Below are positions 30,409 through 55,805 of a stretch of DNA of 64,000 nucleotides, one piece after another. Numbering within the stretch: the first letter of the stretch is position 1; each line of letters begins with the position of its first letter. Source of the DNA: Tubulanus polymorphus. Taxonomy: Eukaryota; Nemertea; Palaeonemertea; Tubulaniformes; Tubulanidae. Both the position numbers and the translations under genes were made by a program. The stretch lies in contig NC_134026.1 of the NCBI RefSeq assembly GCF_964204645.1, positions 24,508,650-24,572,649 on the forward strand. Reading direction: 5' to 3'. A model generated the notes under the pieces. That model had not been told where the DNA came from and did not search any database. It was given only the letters and a program-made list of their open reading frames with translations.

Positions 30409-33400
30409 ATGAAAGCACGGATTATTATTTGGGTTTTGTTTCTAGTTGCCGGGATCAATCTTACGAAAGGATCTTCAAAAGCAGGTAATTTCAAACCGAT
30501 CATGGTTAATCGATTAAGCTTAGTTTTCTATGATAATGAATAAGGTTTCAAATTATTTCTTGATCGTATTAATTTTGATTGAAATTATTTGGAATATTTT
30601 GACTTACACAAAATCAACATTCATTCCGACCATTGGCCTTAATTTGACCTGAATATATACTGAATATATTCAAATACATTCAAATTCAACTTGCCGTTTT
30701 GGAAGTGCATTCATAATAAATTGCTAATTGATAGAAATTGCGAAAATTTTTTATTATCTCAAAAGACCAAGGCCACACACAACGAATCGGAATTCAACTT
30801 AGAAAAACTAATTTTCTGCGTGGCTTATGCAAAATATTTTCAGTATTTTCGTAACTGATCATATCTCAGAAAATCTCTATAGAATACAAATTCCCTAGGA
30901 CACATCTGTAAATTACTTAGTCAATGTTTTCTTCAATCTTTCGAGGAATGGTACTCTTTAACCGATCAGTCAATCAATCAGCATAGGGATCGAATAGGCC
31001 TACATACATGTAACAGCTTGCGATTAATATAATTGATATACGTATATATAATCCTTCTTATTCTCCTACAAATCTATAATTAAATCTAGCTCATTAAGCA
31101 CATAATCTGTGGAATACTTGTATTAAGTAAATAGAATCTTCATCATTCCACTGCTCGATCTTGGTGCGGGGTTATTGCATTCCTCGTCGTTACCGTTTTC
31201 ATGTCCGATACAGAGGATTACTGTTGAGAATGAGAATAACGAAAAAAGAAGAAAAAATTCTAAAAAGTTTTCTAAAAATTCCCTGCCGTGTAACAACATA
31301 AGTCGAAATAAAATACCACTAAACTTGTTGTATGTTTTTTTTTCGCACGCATTTGTTTTACAAAATATCAGGGAGGGTTTCCACGTGTAGCGTGGCGAAA
31401 AAATTCACCCTCCGGCGAGTAACATTCAGAGTGGAGAAACCGCGAATCATTCAACCGATATGTAGTAAGAGATCTATCGAAATTCGACTGCTTAGTACCG
31501 AGATAACCGAAACTATAAATTAAAACTTCCACGCTCTGGTAACATATTCGTATAGTTAATATGTCTGCGAGAAATGTGTTTTAATTTCCGTCCTGCGTGG
31601 CATATAAACGCAACTCTCGTCTGTACTAATTACTTAACCCAATTTTAATCACCGATTCAGGAATTTTCTAAACACTGGCGCTGATTTATTCGATTCGCTT
31701 ATAAAAATGATGAAAAATAGAAGGAATTTTATAACAAGACGCTTTCAATATACACTATTAACACTATAATATATTATCTTCCTTTAATCATGTTCTATAA
31801 ACTGACTCAAAAACCAAGTAAATCAAATTCTATTTCAGATGGTTCAAGTGAAGAAGTGGTCGTTACTGTAGAAGATCAACCACTTAAGAGATATATGAAA
31901 AATGCGAGTCAATTACAGAGTACGAAAACCCTGAAATTCTTCGCCTTCGGAAGACAGTTTTCACTGCAGTTGAAACCTATCTCTTATGGCTCTCGCAAAT
32001 ATCTCCTCGAGCACTGGTCACCGAACGAAACCAGGATAGAAAGCCATTACATCGAGCGATCGTGTGACTTCTCCGGACGTGATTCAGAGCTGACCAGCCG
32101 CACTGTTGTAACGAGTTGCGACGGAATTTTGTGGGTAAAGTGTAGCTCTTTGCTTGATGTTTCATTTGCCTAGTTAAATATTTCGTTTATAAACTTATCC
32201 TATCTACATATTTCGGTTAACGCGATGGTATACGTGCGTTCTGTCGCCTTTCTCAATATCGAATCGAAGCAATTGGTGAATAAAAGCCGCATTTACGTTG
32301 TTCGCGCATTCATCTATCATCTCCCCCACGCCAGTTTTCTGGCAGTAACGTATGTAGTAGGTTGTAAACTATTAGAACATCACATCGCTGAATTTTTATA
32401 ACGAACCCAGTGTACCCTAAACCCGGTGTATTCTCAACGAGCTATCTAATCAGCTATTGGGATCAAGAGCCTTGTTATTCGGGTGATTTATATAAATTGT
32501 TACTTATTTTTTGTGCCTTTTGAACAGTGTTAAGCTGAATATAAGTTGCTAAAAAAACCGATGGTAGATTATTCCAGAACAATTCCTGGAATATGTTAGA
32601 GATATCCGCAATCAGTACAATCAGTGCATAGCCATCATTATCAAATCTATACTATCAAAGACAGGCCAGCTGGACAAAAAGTTGTTTTTTTTTAACATTA
32701 TTCCCTCGACAAGAATCTGTATACTTCTTTATAGTAACGGTCTCGGGTTTCTTGTGGATCTCCATCGAATTTCATTCCCACGAAAGGGGATCAGTGAAAC
32801 AGTGGGCCCAATTCATTTTGTAGAATGGTGTTTTATCGACGAATTATACAGTATTCACGATTGAACCAGTCACCAAAACTTACTCTAATCAGCAATTGCA
32901 CAGAGTTACCGAATACATCAATCATGCGGAACAAACAGGTATTTGATCAAACGTATCGTAAGGGGTTCAGGGGCGGATTTGAGCAGATGGGGGTCAAGCG
33001 CTTTTCTCAGATATAGGGTTTTTTATATTTCAATGAAAAATGCATTCATTTTGTGTGCATTACCTACAGTAATTTCCGAAACAGCAATCCATAACGATTT
33101 GAATTGCGGTTAGTTTCATCAATAATATGATCACTATCACAAAATCTATGAACATGGAGAAGGGGTTCAAGACCCGTGTTCCCTATAGCCAAATCATGCA
33201 TGTATATTCGTACATTTTAGTCGTAAAGGGTCCAATATTCTTGACTGATGAGAAAATCAAATCTCGTCGACGCCGATCAGCCAGCACCGATCGCTATGTG
33301 GAAACTTTAGTCGTAGCTGATAAGTATATGGTACAATTCTACGGCAAAGATGTAGAAAAATACATCCTTACTCTAATGAAGATTGTAAGTAAGACTATGA

Positions 33401-36400
33401 TGAAAATACACGCTGTGGTGTGCCAGGGTTTTGTCGAACTCCGATCCTTGTGATGATTTATCACTATATTTCAGGTAGCTAGTATATTCAAAGATCCATC
33501 TATAGGTAATTCTATCAACATAGTAGTGAATCGGATAATCATACTCAATTATGATGAGGTAAATATGTTTTGATTTTAAGATCCGATGATCCTCAAATCC
33601 AATTCAGGATTATCATGGGCCTCAGCTTTAAGCATAAATTTCGACTGCAACTATGGAATTAGTCGTTGAATTGCAACTGAGGTAAAAAAAAACAAATATT
33701 TACAGCCCAAGCTGCACCTAGGTCATCATGCGGATAAAGTTTTGGGTAAATTTTGTAAGTGGCAGAAGTTGATTAATTTACCAGAGAATGAGGTGACTAA
33801 TTTACAGCATCACGACCATGCTATTTTCATAACTCGGTGAGTAATCCACGAAGAATGTGTATTTTCATATTAACGGTGATTAAAATGAGCTCTAGTTTGA
33901 AATGTTCATCAATCATCAATTTTCAGATATGACATCTGTTCAAAAAAAGATAAACCATGTGGTACCGTCGGTATGTATACACACCTTAGCAAAACGGCTG
34001 AGAAGATTATAAATTCAAATACAGGTATTTTCATGCATATGATTCTAGGTTTGGCTCCAGTTGGAGGGATGTGCAACCCGACTAGAAGTTGTAGCGTCAT
34101 TGAAGATCGCGGTTTGGCAACCGCATTCACCGTAGCGCATGAATTGGGCCACAAGTATGTCAAACTAGGATTACTGTATAGCTATATTTTCTGATATTTT
34201 CCATTACTGATCTTTTCCATTACATGTAATGTTACATTTGATACTTTCAGTTTTGGAATGCACCATGATGGTTTGGGTAATCCATGTGGAGATATTGGTC
34301 ACGAGAGTGCTCGTCTGATGGCCGCTCAAATCAACAAACACATTGATCTATTCAGTTGGTCGAGCTGTAGCAGAGATTATATCACTCATTATTTAGAGTA
34401 AGTCTTTAAAATGCACAAATGAAAGGCAAGAGGGTCTTTCTCATTGATTGATGTGCTATTGTCATCTTTTTACCAATGATGGAGGGGGTATCTTTGGCGA
34501 AAGTACCTAAATGATGTAGGTTTCTCATTGATTCAAACGTGTCTTAATTTTCATATTCTTTTTAACATTCTTTCAAGAATTTTAAAGTCTTTTTCCATAC
34601 GAGTGTTGTTATTTTTGACTACCGAACCGTGGAAGAGGTTATGTCTGATATGCTTAAAGACAGAAAATCTTTCAATCACTGTTTTACTTTTTAAGCTCAG
34701 GGAAGGCTGATTGCCTGTTAAACGTTCCAGTAACGAATAACTATGAATACGCAGACACCCTGCCTGGTTTGCGATATGATGCAGACAAACAGTGCCAATT
34801 TGCAGTCGGCAAAAAATCTCGTATTTGCGGAAACGTAAGCTATTTCGTAAAATCAGCACGATTATGGAATTAATGCTCTCTTTCTTTTAATCACTATTTG
34901 AAGCTTGATTGTTTTGTTAAGTGTTCCTTATTGGTGTTTTTCATTGTAGCTGTCCTGTAAAGAACTACGGTGTCTCGGACCGTATGGGAGTTGTCTCACC
35001 ACGAATCTGCCTGCAGCAGATGGAACGAACTGCTCGTCAAATGAAATCGAAAACGGGGTAGAGCAAACATTTTCATTTTGTGTGCAGTCATGATTTACCG
35101 CAGCCATCTCTCTAATCAATTTTGAATGTTCTATATATATTAGTGGTGCTACCAATCGAAATGTGTGATATACGGCGAATTTCCCGAAGAAATTAACGGC
35201 AATTGGAGTGAATGGTCAGACTGGAGTCAGTGTTCAAGAACTTGTGGTGGTGGAGTCATGAAAAGTTACAGAAATTGCGACAACCCAAGGTAATTGTATA
35301 TATTCTTATCCTGGTTGTGAAATGGTTGCATCGAACAAGATGCTAATCTAAAATGTACTTCATGGACTTTTGTAGTCCGACTCATGGAGGAAGGTACTGT
35401 CTTGGAGACCGTAAAAGGTTCAGATCATGCAACGCAGAGGTATTTTTCTATCATCATTAAGTCTTACAAAATCTATATACTATACTGTTGATATATGATG
35501 AATATGATTTCTTAATCTTTTACTTCATATACGTTAAGCCGTGTCCAGAAGGTGCACCATCGTTCCGTGAGGTGCAATGTGCCAGTTATAATAACATTCC
35601 TTTCCGCGGAAAGAGATACACATGGAGGCCTTACGCCGCAGGTTAGAACAAATTCAATGATCCTTGATAACAGATCATCCTGCTAAAAAATACCAGTTCT
35701 CTCAAGACATAAAGCTTGCGATTTTATTTTTGCAGCTCGTATCGACCACTGTGCGCTGTATTGTATGGCGGAAAAGTTTCATTTCTACGTAGAGAAATCG
35801 CCCAAAGTAATTGATGGAACTCTGTGCTACCAGGGCAGTACTGATATATGCATTGATGGCCAGTGCAAGGTAGACGATCTATAGATTTTTTGGATGAAAT
35901 GTACTTCGATTTTAAATGAAAGTTTGTTTGAATACGTAGTTATCAAAAATCCTTTTAAAGGCAGTTGGTTGTGACAAAAAGTTGGGGTCATCGGCCAAGA
36001 ACGATAAATGCGGAGTTTGCAACGGAGACGGTAATAGTTGTAGAGCAATAACTGCAACTGTAAAAAAGGAAGTCAAATATGGAAGTGAGCAAAAGAGAAC
36101 AACATGAGACATTTTGATACATAACCCTGATGAGGTCGTAAAAATGTTCTTTTTTCTTGTTTTTTTTCTATGAAGAGTATGAAGAGATATTAAGAATTCC
36201 GCGCGGAGCAACGTCTATAAAGGTAGAAGAACTAAATATATCTAGAAATTACCTAGGTAATTATGACAAATACAACAATGAACTCATAGCTCCGATCTCT
36301 CAAGACAACACCTCAACTTACAGCAGAGTCCTTCTAAAGCAAACGTTTAATTTCAGCTTTAAAATCCGAAAGTGGTAATTTCTATATAAATGGTGATTGG

Positions 36401-38240
36401 ATTATAGATTGGCCACAGACGTATTACGTGGCTGGAACTTTGTTTCACTACCACCGAGACGAAGGTAAACTGGAATACCTTGAAGCGCCAGGGCCAACTA
36501 CTGAAAACCTCATCATTATGGTACGAATGCAGGGGGAGGCGAAAGCTCTATTGTATACGATGGATGAAGCAACGTTGCCGTTTCAGTTTTGATATTTAGT
36601 TTCATTCTATTGACAATTTGTCTGCTTCCATGCTTAGTTTGGTACGAACGAATCGTCTAATTACAGGTACTACCACAGGAGTATGCCAGCAGCGGTATCA
36701 AATATACACTGTCTGTACCCTTAGTTGAAGGTCCATTGAACAATAGCATATCAGACCGTACTCAAGTGCAGTCCATTTGGATAACAACACGGTGGTCGAA
36801 ATGTTCCCAAGATTGCGGGGGAGGTAAACCATAATTTGACATTACAGCAAATGTTCATTTATGGATTGTCTTGATCGTTTATTCTATTTTCACACAAGGA
36901 ATAAAGTATCGTCATTACGCATGTGTACGAGAAGATGATAAAACTCTATCCGACGAAAGTTTATGTAAATCACCGAAACCAACGGCTAAAGAGAGACGTT
37001 GCAACGTAAAGCCATGTAGACCCCAGTGAGTAAGCAACCCTCAACCCGCTTAGCGCCACTCAGTGCTGGACTATCTTTCTCCAAACGCAGAGTAGGGGCA
37101 TGGAAAAGTTAGAAAATCCAAGATTGCTTCAGTATTTTGAGTTAAGTACTTGTAAAAGTGATGAGTTTCTATTGATACACAATCCTTTACAGATGGGCAT
37201 TAGGTGAATGGTCAACTTGTTCAAAATCGTGTGGGGGTGGAATCACGACAAGACGTGTACTCTGCATTAAAGATATCGAGAACCGTAAACACGAAGTTGT
37301 CGAGAACAGCACCTGTTCCGAAAAAGCACCATTAATGGTATCGGTTTGTAACAAAAAACGATGCCCACCTCAGTGGATTACTGGTCACTGGAGTAAGGTA
37401 ATCTTAAATCTCACTATAGCTAATGAGACATCCGCCATTCTAATATTTAGTTCTAGAGCGCACAGTTCTGCTATGCTGTCACGCACGCATAATTAATGAA
37501 ATTTGAAAAATTACAGTGTTCCAAACAATGTGGCCAGGGCACAAAGACAAGGTTCGTTTTGTGTTTATCGAAGGATGGCAAAACGTTCATGCCGCATTCA
37601 ACATGCGATCCTAAACTAAAACCGACCAAGGCAACCAGTTGCTTCACAACTAAATGTATTCGACCTAGGTGGGTCATGGGGAAATGGAGTCAAGTAAGTG
37701 AATTCGATGAAATGTCCTGACAAAAATATAACAAAATCTAATGCGCTTCACCGAGTCCTTGTTGGAACTGGCCCGTACTCTCCGCAATCGCTCGCCTGTA
37801 GTGTTAGAATCATTAAGCACGTTTACGCGATGAAACCCCACGCACATGAATATATTGTAAATCATTTTTCTTAATGTTTTAAAGTGTTCGGTATCATGCG
37901 GAAAAGGCACAAAAATAAGGACAGTTGAATGCCGAGATTACAAGAATCGAATCACTGATAGCTGTAAACTTAATAAAAAGCCTCCAAAATACGTAGAATG
38001 CGGCAATTCATGTAAAACCTCAGATCATGCCGAAGGTAAGATGAATTATTCCAATCGTTCAGACACATTCTAATCAGGATATGATTTTCATTAGACCCGG
38101 TGTGTGCCATGATTTCTTCTTTTGTAGTATGTGAAGATTATCCACAGGTGAAATATTGCCCACTAGTCAAACTTTACAATTTTTGTTCAAGGCAATACTT
38201 CAGAAAAACCTGCTGCAAATCATGCGAAGGCATTGCCTAG
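30409..38240 (+). CDS. ADAMTS10: ADAMTS6/10-type secreted metalloprotease
   Basis: Exons: 30409-30484, 31839-32134, 32824-32938, 33070-33108, 33221-33384, 33475-33558, 33706-33836, 33927-33970, 34049-34154, 34251-34397, 34696-34834, 34950-35057, 35144-35289, 35376-35439, 35539-35641, 35736-35869, 35961-36084, 36176-36256, 36357-36520, 36667-36823, 36899-37025, 37193-37397, 37517-37693, 37885-38035, 38128-38240; 1064 residues. Domains: signal peptide (1-20), prodomain, furin-type site SRRRRS at 190-195, catalytic domain with zinc motif HELGHNFGMHHD (347-358) and Met-turn, disintegrin-like, TSR1, Cys-rich, spacer, four more TSRs (WSKC/WSTC/WSQC with CGxG), PLAC domain. This layout matches ADAMTS6/ADAMTS10, which act on fibrillin matrix. 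The paralogue symbol is a guess; an unduplicated ancestor is likely. Exons 2-4 of the prodomain are least certain. Confidence 0.92.
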
Positions 38241-38778: not shown

Positions 38779-41332
38779 ATGGCTGCGCCCGTGTTAACAT
38801 ATGAAGGATGCAATTTTCTTCGACAAAGATTGATTTTATCGACGCTCTCCGGGAAACCGGTAAAAATTAGAAAGATCAGACATAAAGACGATAGTCCTGG
38901 ACTGCAAGGTATCAAAAATGTATCTGATAACTGTGTCTCTAATGCGTGACAGTCGAATTAAATCCGACATGCTTGAGCGTGATGATAGTCTGTTTATTTT
39001 CTGCTTAAAACTTAGGTTTATGTCAAAACAATTATTTTGTAGAATTTGAAGCCAGCCTTCTACGATTATTGGACAAAGTAACGAACGGAACAGTAATAGA
39101 AATAAATGAAACAGGTATGGGCTCGTTTATAAGATTCTTCATGTGAGATAGACAAAAAAGCAAGGTTTTAAGAAATTATTTTATCATTTAGGTACCACAT
39201 TATATTTTCAACCGGGTTTATTAGTCGGTGATAGTATTGAACATGACTGTTGTACCCAGCGAGCTATCGGATATTACCTTGAATTACTGATTTGTCTGGC
39301 GCCATTCACAAAAAAGCCTTTAAAAGCTGTATTGAGGGGCGTAACCAATGATAAATTAGATCCCTCGGTAAGCTGTTAATATAATGGAAATAGATTATGC
39401 GGTGAAATTACAATTACATAGGTTGAATATCTGATTGTTTATTTTCAGGTGGATGTTATTAAATTATCAATATTTCCGGTGCTTAAAAGATTTCTAGGAA
39501 CAGATGAAGGATTTGAACTGAAGGTAGGATCGATTATTTCCTCAGAATTCAATCTGAACGTTAGATAGGTGCGGTGTACTGAATATAGATGAATCATTTA
39601 TACTGATTACAGATAAACAGGAGAGGAGCTGCTCCGGATGGAGGTGGTGAAATTCTCTTCAAATGTCCTTGTCGACAAAAATTACGTCCCGTTCAGTTTA
39701 CGGATCCAGGAAAAATAAAAAGAATTAGAGGAGTGGCGTATCCTTTATCTATTGGACTTTCATTTCGGAATGGCCTTCAATTTCTTCTACATTTCAAGTC
39801 AACTTTTCTCATTAGAAAATCAATTTCTAATAAAACTGTACCATACACTTGTTGGGAACGTCAATCTTATATCTATTTGATGACTTATTTGACAACATTT
39901 CCATTTGGGAGCCTAAAAATCCAGTTCAAGGTTCATTAATTAACCAATTTTCACTACGTTTAACCTTGGAGTAATCAGACTGATTACTCCAAGGTATAAC
40001 TGAGTGCATTGTAGCGCCATCTGGTTTGTGCTGATGCCCCATTATAGCCCAGGCTGTAAGTCTCCAAAATTGAAATGCATGTATTTTATCAGCACGTTAC
40101 CTTAGCAACGCAATATTTTGGCCTGGCTCATGTAACCAGGGTTAAAAATCTACCAAAATAAACTTCAGAATCTTATCTTTCTTCATTGAAAATTTGGGCT
40201 TTGATGTTTTCCAGGGAACCGAAATCATATTTCTAGAGTGTTTTTGAGACTTAGAGCCTGTCCTATTAATGATATATAAATAGGGGAGCATTCATTTATT
40301 ACATACGCATAAGATTTGAATTTTTCAACCCCCCTCCCCCTCTGTACACAAAATCGGCCACTTTTTCATATACATTAAGCATCACAGTACGCAATTGCAC
40401 TGTACCCTCCCTTAATGCGTACGTAATAAATGAATGACCCCATGTAGTGTCTACAAACACTATGTACAGCTGTTTTTTTCGTTTTCAAAATCAATTCGCA
40501 TTTGTTCAATGTTTTGTACTTAGACTTTAACTTCTCATAGCTGGGCCGCTAGAGTTTCTCCAGCCGTGGCTAATAGAATTGTGGATTCAACCAGAAGCAT
40601 TCTCAACAAATGTCTCCCAGATATATACATTTATACAGATCACAATAAAGGCAGCCAGTCTGGCAAGTAAGTACTAAATAGACCTTTCCGGATGTAGCAG
40701 TAGATGTTACGTTTGATTAAAGATTATACATACATGCGTTCTTTTTCCAGGTCTCCTGGTTTCGGTTTAACGTTAGTAGCTGAAACAACAAATGGTGCTT
40801 TCTTATCGGCTGAATCGATATCTAATGCAAAAGGTAGTGAAGACGGCCCAACGATTCCAGAAGAGCTGGGGAAGAATACAGCTGTATCATTACTAGGAGA
40901 GATTTATAGGGTAAAGATTTAGTTAGCCCAACAGCAAAAAACGTCTTAAGATACAATCGATAAAGACTTTTCATCTTTTGTAGGGTGGATGTGTAGATTC
41001 TTTTAGTCAGAGTTTATCTTGTTTGCTAATGACGCTTGGGCAGAAAGATGTATCTAAAATCCTGACAGGTCCGCTATCACCGTACACGTAAGTATTACTC
41101 CATCGATGTTGAATTCATTTTATAATTAATTATGTTCATGTGATTTTGAAATTTTCTTAATTTTTTTCACAGAGTACAATTTTTACGGCATATGAAAGAC
41201 TTTTTCGAGGTCATGTTCAAAATAGAGCCAAAACAATCTGCTGAGGAAGAAGATTTGAATTTAGGAGGTGAAAAACTGCTTTTAACTTGCGTTGGAATCG
41301 GTTATCAAAATCTCAGTAAAGCTATAATGTAA
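38779..41332 (+). CDS. RCL1: RNA 3'-terminal phosphate cyclase-like protein (RCL1)
   Basis: The exons are 38779-38908, 39043-39114, 39192-39367, 39449-39523, 39613-39737, 40541-40666, 40751-40910, 40984-41087 and 41173-41332, giving 375 residues (human 373). Similarity to RCL1 is clear along the whole length: YEGCNFLRQRLILSTLSGKP, GLLVGDSIEHDC, RRGAAPDGGGE, DPGKIKRIRG, PDIYIYTDH, SPGFGLTLVAETT, GGCVDS and TCVGIGYQNLSKAIM. RCL1 is the nucleolar, Bms1-associated factor of the U3 processome needed for 18S rRNA maturation. It belongs to the cyclase fold but is not an active cyclase. The intron after codon 290 of the transcript's first half (39738-40540) is of U12 type. Confidence 0.95.
39963..39995. 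repeat. Perfect 16-bp inverted repeat with 1-nt spacer
   Basis: ACCTTGGAGTAATCAG at 39963-39978 is followed by one A and then its exact reverse complement at 39980-39995. It lies inside the RCL1 U12 intron. Confidence 0.95.
40283..40441. mobile_element. 159-bp MITE-like element in the RCL1 intron
   Basis: The left end GGGGAGCATTCATTTATTAC and the reverse complement of the right end, GGGGTCATTCATTTATTACG, form terminal inverted repeats of about 30 bp that continue into TACGCATTAAG-like sequence. The centre has CCCCCCTCCCCC. Similar GGGGTCATTCATTTATTACG ends are, to my knowledge, widespread in invertebrate genomes. No target-site duplication could be assigned with certainty. Confidence 0.7.
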
Positions 41333-42431: not shown

Positions 42432-43632
42432 TTACATTTTCAATTCTGTTTGTTTGATAATGTATTCTTTTGGTTTAAAACGAATATTTGCTTGAAACAG
42501 TCGGTCAGTTACCTCTAAAAATTGCTCCACGTCCACTTTCCCTTTCGCACCCGTGTCGACTTTTGAAAAGTATTTTTGTCGCTCTTCCGTTGAACTCTTG
42601 TCACCAAGTTCATTCATTACCGTACAGCTAGAATTACGTTAAGCACATGTTGTCAGTTTTATTTCAACATTGTTTGGTCTTAGCCGAGAAAATGATTGAC
42701 TTACAGTTCATCGAAATCTATCAATCCATCTTTATTTAGGTCGAATAGCAGAAATTGGGACTTCATATCAAGTAGTTGTTGCGTTTCCCAATTCGGAAAT
42801 TTAGCTTTCAAACTTCTCGGGTCCAATTCTGAAATAATTTGACATACAAAAATATTATCTCGTTTGTCTTCTTGGGATTCCTTTAGACATAGTTTCCAGG
42901 ATTAACTGAGCGTGATTTTTTTACCGCGGAATTTTAGTTTCATCTGTTTTAGATAACGACGTTCTTCAACGAATTGTTGGAAAAAATCATCGATAGCCTT
43001 TTTGAATTCAGATTTTTTATGATAAACCTGGTGATCTGGAAAACGCTCGCCTGAAATAAGCAAAAAAGAACTTATAAATCGTTGTTTAGTAATGTCAATG
43101 ACATTGAGAGGTTTTTCTGGCGTGAGAAAGTCCCGAAACTTTAGGCCTATATTATTCAATCAATCACTGACACTAATCAGTCAGTCAAGATTCACGAGTC
43201 GGTATTGTGTGACGCTTTTTTAAAAACTTTTTATAGCGTTCTTTTGTCTTATTTCACGATAGATTCTTACTAAGAAATTGACCTTTAGCGGATATAATTT
43301 TCATTAACCCCCTCCCCCAACCAAGTCCAAGAAGATATCATTGATCAGATCGACAAATTGGAATTTCTTACTTGGTCTTTTGGCGCGTGGCTGGCCACTA
43401 TAGGCCTATCTAAATATCAACAAAACGAATGTAAATCGTTCGGTCGAAAAAACTTGCGATCGTTCGCCATTCTTTGTTTTCTTCTTCTCCCCAACGTCTT
43501 TTGGATCGAAACAAATCGGAAAAAATCATGCGCTAAAGCTATCCATCTGTACCTACCCGTTGGCGAAAATACTTCTGCTGATTCGTACGACACTGGGGCT
43601 CTTCCCACGTTAGGAAAAACTATGTTTCCCAT
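42432..43632 (-). CDS. Small EF-hand calcium-binding protein
   Basis: Exons in transcript order are 43632-43557, 43050-42925, 42828-42705 and 42627-42432. Phases match and the splice sites are GT-AG. The product has 173 residues and begins MGNIVFPNVG. A charged helical stretch (residues 36-66) precedes the EF-hand pair. Loop 1 (residues 97-108, DLNKDGLIDFDE) is canonical with all calcium ligands. Loop 2 (133-144, DTGAKGKVDVEQ) ends in Gln instead of Glu and has Lys and Gly inside, so it may bind weakly or not at all. The first exon is supported by phase and donor rather than similarity. I do not recognise a named orthologue. Confidence 0.7.
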
Positions 43633-53271: not shown

Positions 53272-55805
53272 CCCATTGGTCATGGCGACTGCAAAGAAAA
53301 AGATCCACGGACCAACACAGCAAAACCATAATTTTGATGTTTCCTTTCATCAGCATATTGTCACATAACTCAATTACATTAATTTCATTTCGTCTTGTAC
53401 TCCGCATTTTTATTTAATTAGTCGCCCACTGATAAACCAGTTTCACCTTGCATACATCCAATGTGGTAAAATAGAATTATGTTTTATCACATTTCATTTC
53501 ATAAGCAGGCACTTGTCATGCACCATTCATTCGTTCGTACACATTTGTTTTGCCACCATAAAATGCATCCAATCGATCTATCAGTCATCAATCGGTCAGC
53601 TCATGGCCCGGCATCTCCGTCATTTGAATAAGCTACTGATGATAGCATTTAAGCTAGACGAGGTGATTATAGAGGCTAATAGAGCTTACATCCGGAGTAA
53701 ATTCCTCGTCACATATTGCAAATTACGTATCATCACATGGACACTCATCAGTGTTGCCGAAATAGCAGCGTTTTGAATAACAGTTCATTAAATATTATGA
53801 CCAAAGAAATACGACGGGTGTCACTTTGAAGTGTCTTTTGCTTGTATGAGAGGACCTTGCGCTAGGAGAAACTCACGCCACTTGACATCCGTTAATGAAC
53901 AACTCACATCAAAAAATAACAGCAGTGAACATTATTTCGTCAACTGCATACGAGCAACTGGACACAAAATCGAATGCCGCAATGGTTTTACACATCTGGA
54001 CCTCCACAGAGGCCAAGTTCAGTTACTACGATGGATGTATACTCTAAGTGCGAGGATACTCATAAAAAAGTGGACGTGTTGATAAATATCATTTAATATT
54101 TATGGGCTAGATGCTCTAAATGAAGATATTGAATCGCGGCTGCCTGCACATACGCAACCATCATCCGTTCGGTTGGTGATAAATTGGCGCTCATGACGCA
54201 GCGCGGTGAGTTTTACTGATCAAGTTCTGGTTTTATCACCTGCCAGAGACTCGAAGTCGGCAACGCGGACAGATCTTTCACTGATACGTGCGACTAGTAG
54301 GCTACGGTTTTCATTCCAGTCTTGTTAAAGTTTCTTGAGACACCAACAAACATCGGTGTTGAAAAATTCATAGAAAGGAACCTATGCTTTTATAAAAGGA
54401 ACCGTACAGTTACAAAAAGAAGGGTTATATAGAAATTTCTTCAACATCGGGATAAAAAAACTATACGTAAGTACGTTGAAAGTCGGTTGTACAGTGATGT
54501 CGATTAGTCTGACTGAGATAGATAAATGAAAAGAACTTTAATTCATAACTCTGAATCATGTTCTATGGAGAAATTATTGGCCTCTATTGCGAAAATTGCA
54601 AGAGATAGCTTTTCATAGTTTGTTCCTACGAAATGGAGCGGGTTTGTAGTTTAAGATCTCTGTAGACTTTGACTTAATTTTGCGTATGTCAGATTATTTC
54701 TAAACCAGTGGCAGTATCGCGGGGATGTCGGAGACGTAATCAGCTTTTATTTCTAAGTCCTACTCAGATTTGGATCTGATGCGGTGTAAAAATACTTAAA
54801 TTACAACTGAAGAAAATGGGGTTGCGGAATCAACGGAAGAGATATAAGTTTAACGAAATTGTACCACTACTTGTATTATCCAAAATCTGCTTGAAAACCA
54901 TCACATCAGTGTTAATATGTTAATACAGTTGATGTACCCATGCGAAAATCTAGCTTTGACCCAAATGGTTGTATAATTTGGAAAATATAATAAGCCTTTG
55001 ATCAGAGTGATGTACCGTTTACTTCGTAGGAATAAAAGGTGTACAGTAACATTGCTTGTTCCTCAATTGTTTTGAAACTTGAAACTAATAGCAAATCCAT
55101 TAGGTCATATGCGATTCAAAGGATACATAAGAGTTACTAAGGCATCTTTGACGAGCTAAAATGAAGATTTGATTCCAGATAGCTCATACCACACATCCAA
55201 CTAAGAAACACATAACAGCATGTTAAAAAATCAGAAAGGTAACGGATTAACCCAAGATTGCGGGAGGAATCCTGATTGCAGTAGCAGGGATTGTAGGTTT
55301 TCAATTACTCTCGTGTCCTTCAATGGCGATTTCATCAATCTGGCCAAATGACGGGAAAATGTCATCAGCCATTATTTTGGTTTTGGCCACTAGGATGTTT
55401 AAATGAAGAATTATATATCGCTATCCAGATTTCCAGCTTTCCTAAACCTCTCCTATATTTCATAATGGACGCGTTGCTGAACGTGGTTGATTAATTATTC
55501 GCTGCATATGCATGCATATGGCGTCAACACAGATGATAATGCGAAAGACAACGACAAGCACACAAGATGTAAAATGAAACGATGATAGTTCACAATTATG
55601 GTAATATAGTAGAACATTGCCTAGAGAACGTTTCTGCTGAGTTAGATGATTGACTAATCAAACATAACCCTATATCTGACTAAATTTCTACATTTTTCAA
55701 AATTTAGGCGATTTTGGTTCACAAAAAGGATCTATGATACATAACGAATTATGAATTTTCATAATAATTATTTATTCCGTAGCATAGATAGATTTCTTCG
55801 TAGTC

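Follow-up and report, generated by a model that had tools for sequence, protein, structure and literature searches.

The RCL1 gene and its surroundings

The window analysed here, a stretch of 64,000 nucleotides from the nemertean Tubulanus polymorphus, carries on its forward strand a protein-coding gene with the following structure.

38779-41332, forward strand: RCL1 coding gene, nine exons and eight introns
38779-38908, forward strand: RCL1 exon 1
39043-39114, forward strand: RCL1 exon 2
39192-39367, forward strand: RCL1 exon 3
39449-39523, forward strand: RCL1 exon 4
39613-39737, forward strand: RCL1 exon 5
40541-40666, forward strand: RCL1 exon 6
40751-40910, forward strand: RCL1 exon 7
40984-41087, forward strand: RCL1 exon 8
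41173-41332, forward strand: RCL1 exon 9

The spliced reading frame is open over 375 amino acids, and the predicted protein is matched over its full length by human RCL1 in the PDB, with an E value of 1.5e-170, where the best-scoring RTC cyclase of the same database reaches 1.7e-16. On this comparison the gene is an RCL1 orthologue, far nearer to RCL1 than to the RTC cyclases, and the name given to it in the initial annotation holds, given the full-length match and the 69% identity to the human protein. RCL1 is a ribosome-assembly factor of the small-subunit (SSU) processome. Searches of prokaryote and virus contig collections returned no relatives of RCL1, as is expected for such collections.

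Upstream of RCL1, forward-strand frames at 33100-38240 resemble exons and have thrombospondin-like cysteine motifs; recognised by eye, they suggest an ADAMTS-type gene. Downstream, EF-hand-like motifs were likewise seen by eye in minus-strand frames at 42432-43159. As for RNA genes, the window gave no Rfam match and no tRNA.

Splice signals and class of intron 5

The fifth intron of RCL1 differs from the others in its splice signals, which are located as follows.

39738-40540, forward strand: intron 5, GT-AG, assigned to the U12 type; 803 nt, phase 2, splitting the codon of Ala193
39738-39746, forward strand: U12-type donor GTATCCTTT, exact consensus
40525-40531, forward strand: U12-type branch site CTTTAAC, of the TTAAC type, with the predicted branch A at 40530
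40539-40540, forward strand: acceptor AG, the first AG 3' of the branch site, placed by the sequence and the frame test

The intron begins with the GT at 39738-39739 and ends in CTTTAACTTCTCATAG. The donor, GTATCCTTTATC, agrees with the U12 5' consensus RTATCCTTT at 9/9 positions, and the branch site, GACTTTAAC, agrees with TTCCTTAAC at 6/9 positions with the TTAAC core intact. The branch A lies 10 nt from the end of the intron, within the distance of 10-20 nt between branch and 3' splice site that has been published for U12-type introns (PMC8199999). Between the branch site and the AG there is just CTTCTCAT, which is too short for a polypyrimidine tract to be judged, and an extra AG is present at 40522-40523, upstream of the branch site.

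The junction was examined by trying 244 donor/acceptor pairs around the ends of intron 5. The frame was open in 44 of the 244 pairs, and the U12-type pair gave the best alignment with the human protein, free of gaps. The initial annotation had placed the intron at 39738-40540, where the GT and AG are found exactly, and had argued that the exon frame demands these ends; both the coordinates and the frame argument are right, because the U12-type pair is the best among the 44 with an open frame. Its description of a perfect minor-spliceosome donor, with a branch-like sequence about 10 nt before the AG, agrees with the 9/9 consensus match and with CTTTAAC, and it had also rightly called this intron the longest in the gene, the remaining seven being 73-134 nt in length. 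Neither a U12-type donor nor, near the intron end, a TTAAC-type branch site was present in any of these seven introns, which are classed by their sequences as major-type introns.

The U12 character of the intron was scored by exact consensus, by duplex energies and against an empirical null. If intron 5 were a major (U2-type) intron, its U12-like donor and branch site would have to be coincidental, and the frequency of the donor motif is compatible with this, since GTATCCTTT was seen three times in the window compared with 1.96 times expected from shuffles (3 of 7034 window sites, given a GT). The motif is thus at chance level in the window and alone means little; moreover, the branch site is not of the commonest U12 form. 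The weight of the donor motif lies, on the sequence evidence, in its placement on a junction that is set by homology and frame, which argues against coincidence. An equally good branch match precedes 3.9% of AGs, and the chance that one of RCL1's eight introns would have both a donor and a branch site of this kind comes to approximately 1.3e-4, a rough and post hoc estimate that also weighs against coincidence. The two further GTATCCTTT sites in the window, at 1532-1540 and 55118-55126 on the minus strand, were rejected as donors; they show no donor signs, and the open frames upstream of them are short.

Duplex energies of the donors and the branch site were calculated against the snRNAs of the host genome itself. 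The donor of intron 5 pairs well with U6atac (−6.3 kcal/mol) and U11 (−5.2 kcal/mol), and its pairing with U1 (−2.3 kcal/mol) is the worst among the eight RCL1 donors, the others ranging from −5.7 to −9.2 kcal/mol. The duplex of the branch site with U12, at −2.2 kcal/mol, is unremarkable, in a model that did not impose the bulged adenosine. This pairing pattern of the donor, together with the minor snRNAs encoded in the genome, also argues against a major intron with coincidental signals, which we regard as highly improbable. On its sequence, RCL1 intron 5 is almost certainly a GT-AG U12-type intron that would be removed by the minor spliceosome. It resembles the U12-type introns of animals and plants in its donor, its branch site and the distance from branch to AG, as well as in its phase other than 0, in being single among major introns and in the presence of minor snRNAs in the host. 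It differs from them in that its branch site is CTTTAAC, where CCTTAAC is commoner.

In the proposed splicing reaction, the donor would first base-pair with U11, and the CTTTAAC branch site with U12, after which U6atac would displace U11 on the donor UCCUUU. Branching would occur at 40530, and the first downstream AG, at 40539-40540, would be used, the AG at 40522-40523 being skipped because it is upstream of the branch site. If the intron were retained, translation of the frame predicts that 66 intron-coded residues would be added before a stop and that the C-terminal half of the protein would be lost. We infer the actual splicing of intron 5, the order of its steps, for which established minor splicing (PMC8199999) serves as the guide, and what would become of a transcript that retains the intron.

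Minor-spliceosome components and other U12-type introns in the genome

The genome was scanned over 268 Mb in 77 contigs, and U4atac, U12, U6atac and U11 were all found above the Rfam gathering scores. A genome without these four RNAs, which had been named at the outset as evidence that would speak against a U12-type intron, is thereby excluded. U6atac is represented by two near-identical genes with scores of 96.5 and 93.5 bits; a third, weak match of 40.5 bits at 15260197-15260307 of contig C8 is probably a decayed copy. Motifs present in these snRNAs include GTAAGGA in U12, AAAGGAGAG in U6atac and AAAGGG near the 5' end of U11, along with Sm-like sites. PDCD7, the 59K protein of U11/U12, is also encoded, above the curated threshold.

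Compact U12-type introns were sought genome-wide with a strict pattern, which gave 17 matches as compared with 5 in the reversed control; a single site, read in overlapping ways, accounts for three of the 17. A pattern with a longer spacer gave 6 further matches compared with 2 in the control, and one of the 6 has a RhoGAP match. Where other introns combine the donor of intron 5 with a branch site of CCTTAAC or CTTTAAC, joining their flanks gives conserved proteins in frame. Such joined flanks were confirmed by Pfam or a PDB sequence for two protein kinases, a CBF/NF-YB factor, a CoA transferase, NOP53, a PARP, MED23, EXOSC1/CSL4, RRP5 and EED, the EED query being one residue short at the junction. 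The more specific names RAF and NLK for the kinases, NFYB for the CBF/NF-YB factor and OXCT for the CoA transferase are our own reading of the sequences.

The matches with a CTTTAAC branch site include a calcineurin-like phosphatase, a ThiF-family protein, an inositol polyphosphate kinase, EIF3I, a leucine-rich repeat protein, a nicastrin-lobe protein and THOC2. The raw genome-wide count of this pattern shows no clear excess over the reversed control (10 compared with 8); approximately 8 of the 10 matches lie between in-frame coding flanks, and a Pfam match was obtained for 7 of these. Because CTTTAAC is found in other coding-flanked introns, this branch variant is ordinary in the genome. The other U12-type candidates of the genome have a distance of 9-16 nt from the branch to the intron end. 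A strict pattern for AT-AC U12 introns gave no signal genome-wide, with 2 matches as against 4 in the reversed control; with no excess over the control, this subtype may be rare in the genome.

Three of the introns detected in this way are located in NOP53 (26711711-26711783 of contig C1), RRP5/PDCD11 (23318366-23318452 of contig C2) and EXOSC1/CSL4 (378100-378179 of contig C2). With RCL1 included, at least four pre-rRNA processing genes of this genome therefore have a U12-type intron.

Repeats, age and possible role of intron 5

Intron 5 departs from the other introns of RCL1 in that it is much longer through inserted repeats, for which no strand was assigned.

39952-40043: palindromic repeat fragment, inverted repeat 39952-39978/39980-40006, with dispersed partial copies
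40077-40268: second dispersed repeat, with copies elsewhere in the genome at 82-93% identity
40281-40443 (about): MITE of approximately 160 bp with inverted ends of approximately 27 nt, high copy number

The inverted repeat of the MITE is formed by 40284-40310 and 40415-40441, and tens of copies were scored at 87-94% identity from approximately 1000 first-look candidates. Several copies appear by eye to be bordered on both sides by TTA or ATA, which suggests that the target duplication is a 3-bp TWA, like that of PIF/Harbinger elements. The fragment at 39952-40043 is perhaps a part of the element at 40077-40268. The gain of a transposon proposed for this intron is thus confirmed in the form of a high-copy MITE, to which a dispersed repeat is added. 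Without its repeats, the intron would measure roughly 310-370 nt. Since the extra length consists mostly of repeats, no function is needed to explain it.

The genome contains a separate RTCA gene (6050400-6061000 of contig C2), which belongs to the same family as RCL1, PF01137. In contrast to RCL1, the homologous position in RTCA, in the GRAFVAGVLP stretch, lies within one exon and has no intron. An origin of intron 5 before the split of RCL1 and RTCA is thus unsupported, the position in RTCA being uninterrupted; a loss in RTCA is possible. As a separate observation, intron 1 of RTCA (6050505 of contig C2) and intron 1 of RCL1 (38909) both begin with GTATCA directly after a conserved PGL motif, and they lie 2 bases apart in the alignment with different phases. 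This similarity may reflect either a common origin with sliding or coincidence.

RNA processing has been known since 1998 as an enriched class of minor-intron genes, and among the minor-intron genes with high expression in the retina of the mouse embryo, ribosome biogenesis has been noted (PMC6865273). RCL1 shares its donor motif and its functional area with the minor-intron RNA-processing genes EXOSC1, RRP5/PDCD11 and NOP53. A literature search that covered main texts returned none that names RCL1 among the minor-intron genes. This silence of the literature does not show novelty, and intron 5 is a good example of an already known kind of intron.

Besides being of the U12 type, intron 5 could act as a regulatory switch, through which a limiting activity of the minor spliceosome would restrain RCL1 mRNA and ribosome production. 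Such a role would accord with the report that U6atac limits the expression of minor-intron genes in human cells (PMC3728624), with the truncated RCL1 protein predicted upon retention and with the three further pre-rRNA processing genes that have U12-type introns here. However, RNA-processing genes are known to be enriched among genes with minor introns, without a shown coupling (PMC6865273), and, minor introns being common in them, intron 5 alone is no argument for regulation. The length of the intron, as accounted for by repeats, also gives no support to a switch, and a pan-eukaryotic survey reportedly favours neutral processes for much of minor-intron evolution (PMC10639083). A regulatory switch at intron 5 is considered very unlikely, and no result obtained here connects RCL1 with U6atac-limited control. 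The occurrence of candidate U12-type introns in all of RCL1, RRP5, NOP53 and EXOSC1 is a suggestive hint of a coupling to ribosomes; that a limiting minor-spliceosome activity would set ribosome output through RCL1, RRP5, NOP53 and the exosome component CSL4 together is very unlikely.

The assignment of intron 5 to the U12 type places a well-supported minor intron in a small-subunit processome gene; the animal genome concerned is assembled at chromosome scale, and the positions of its four minor snRNAs are now known. RCL1 intron 5 can be entered cleanly in the catalogue of minor introns and can serve as a test case. If the splicing of RCL1 were limiting, the activity of the minor spliceosome would be linked to ribosome assembly.
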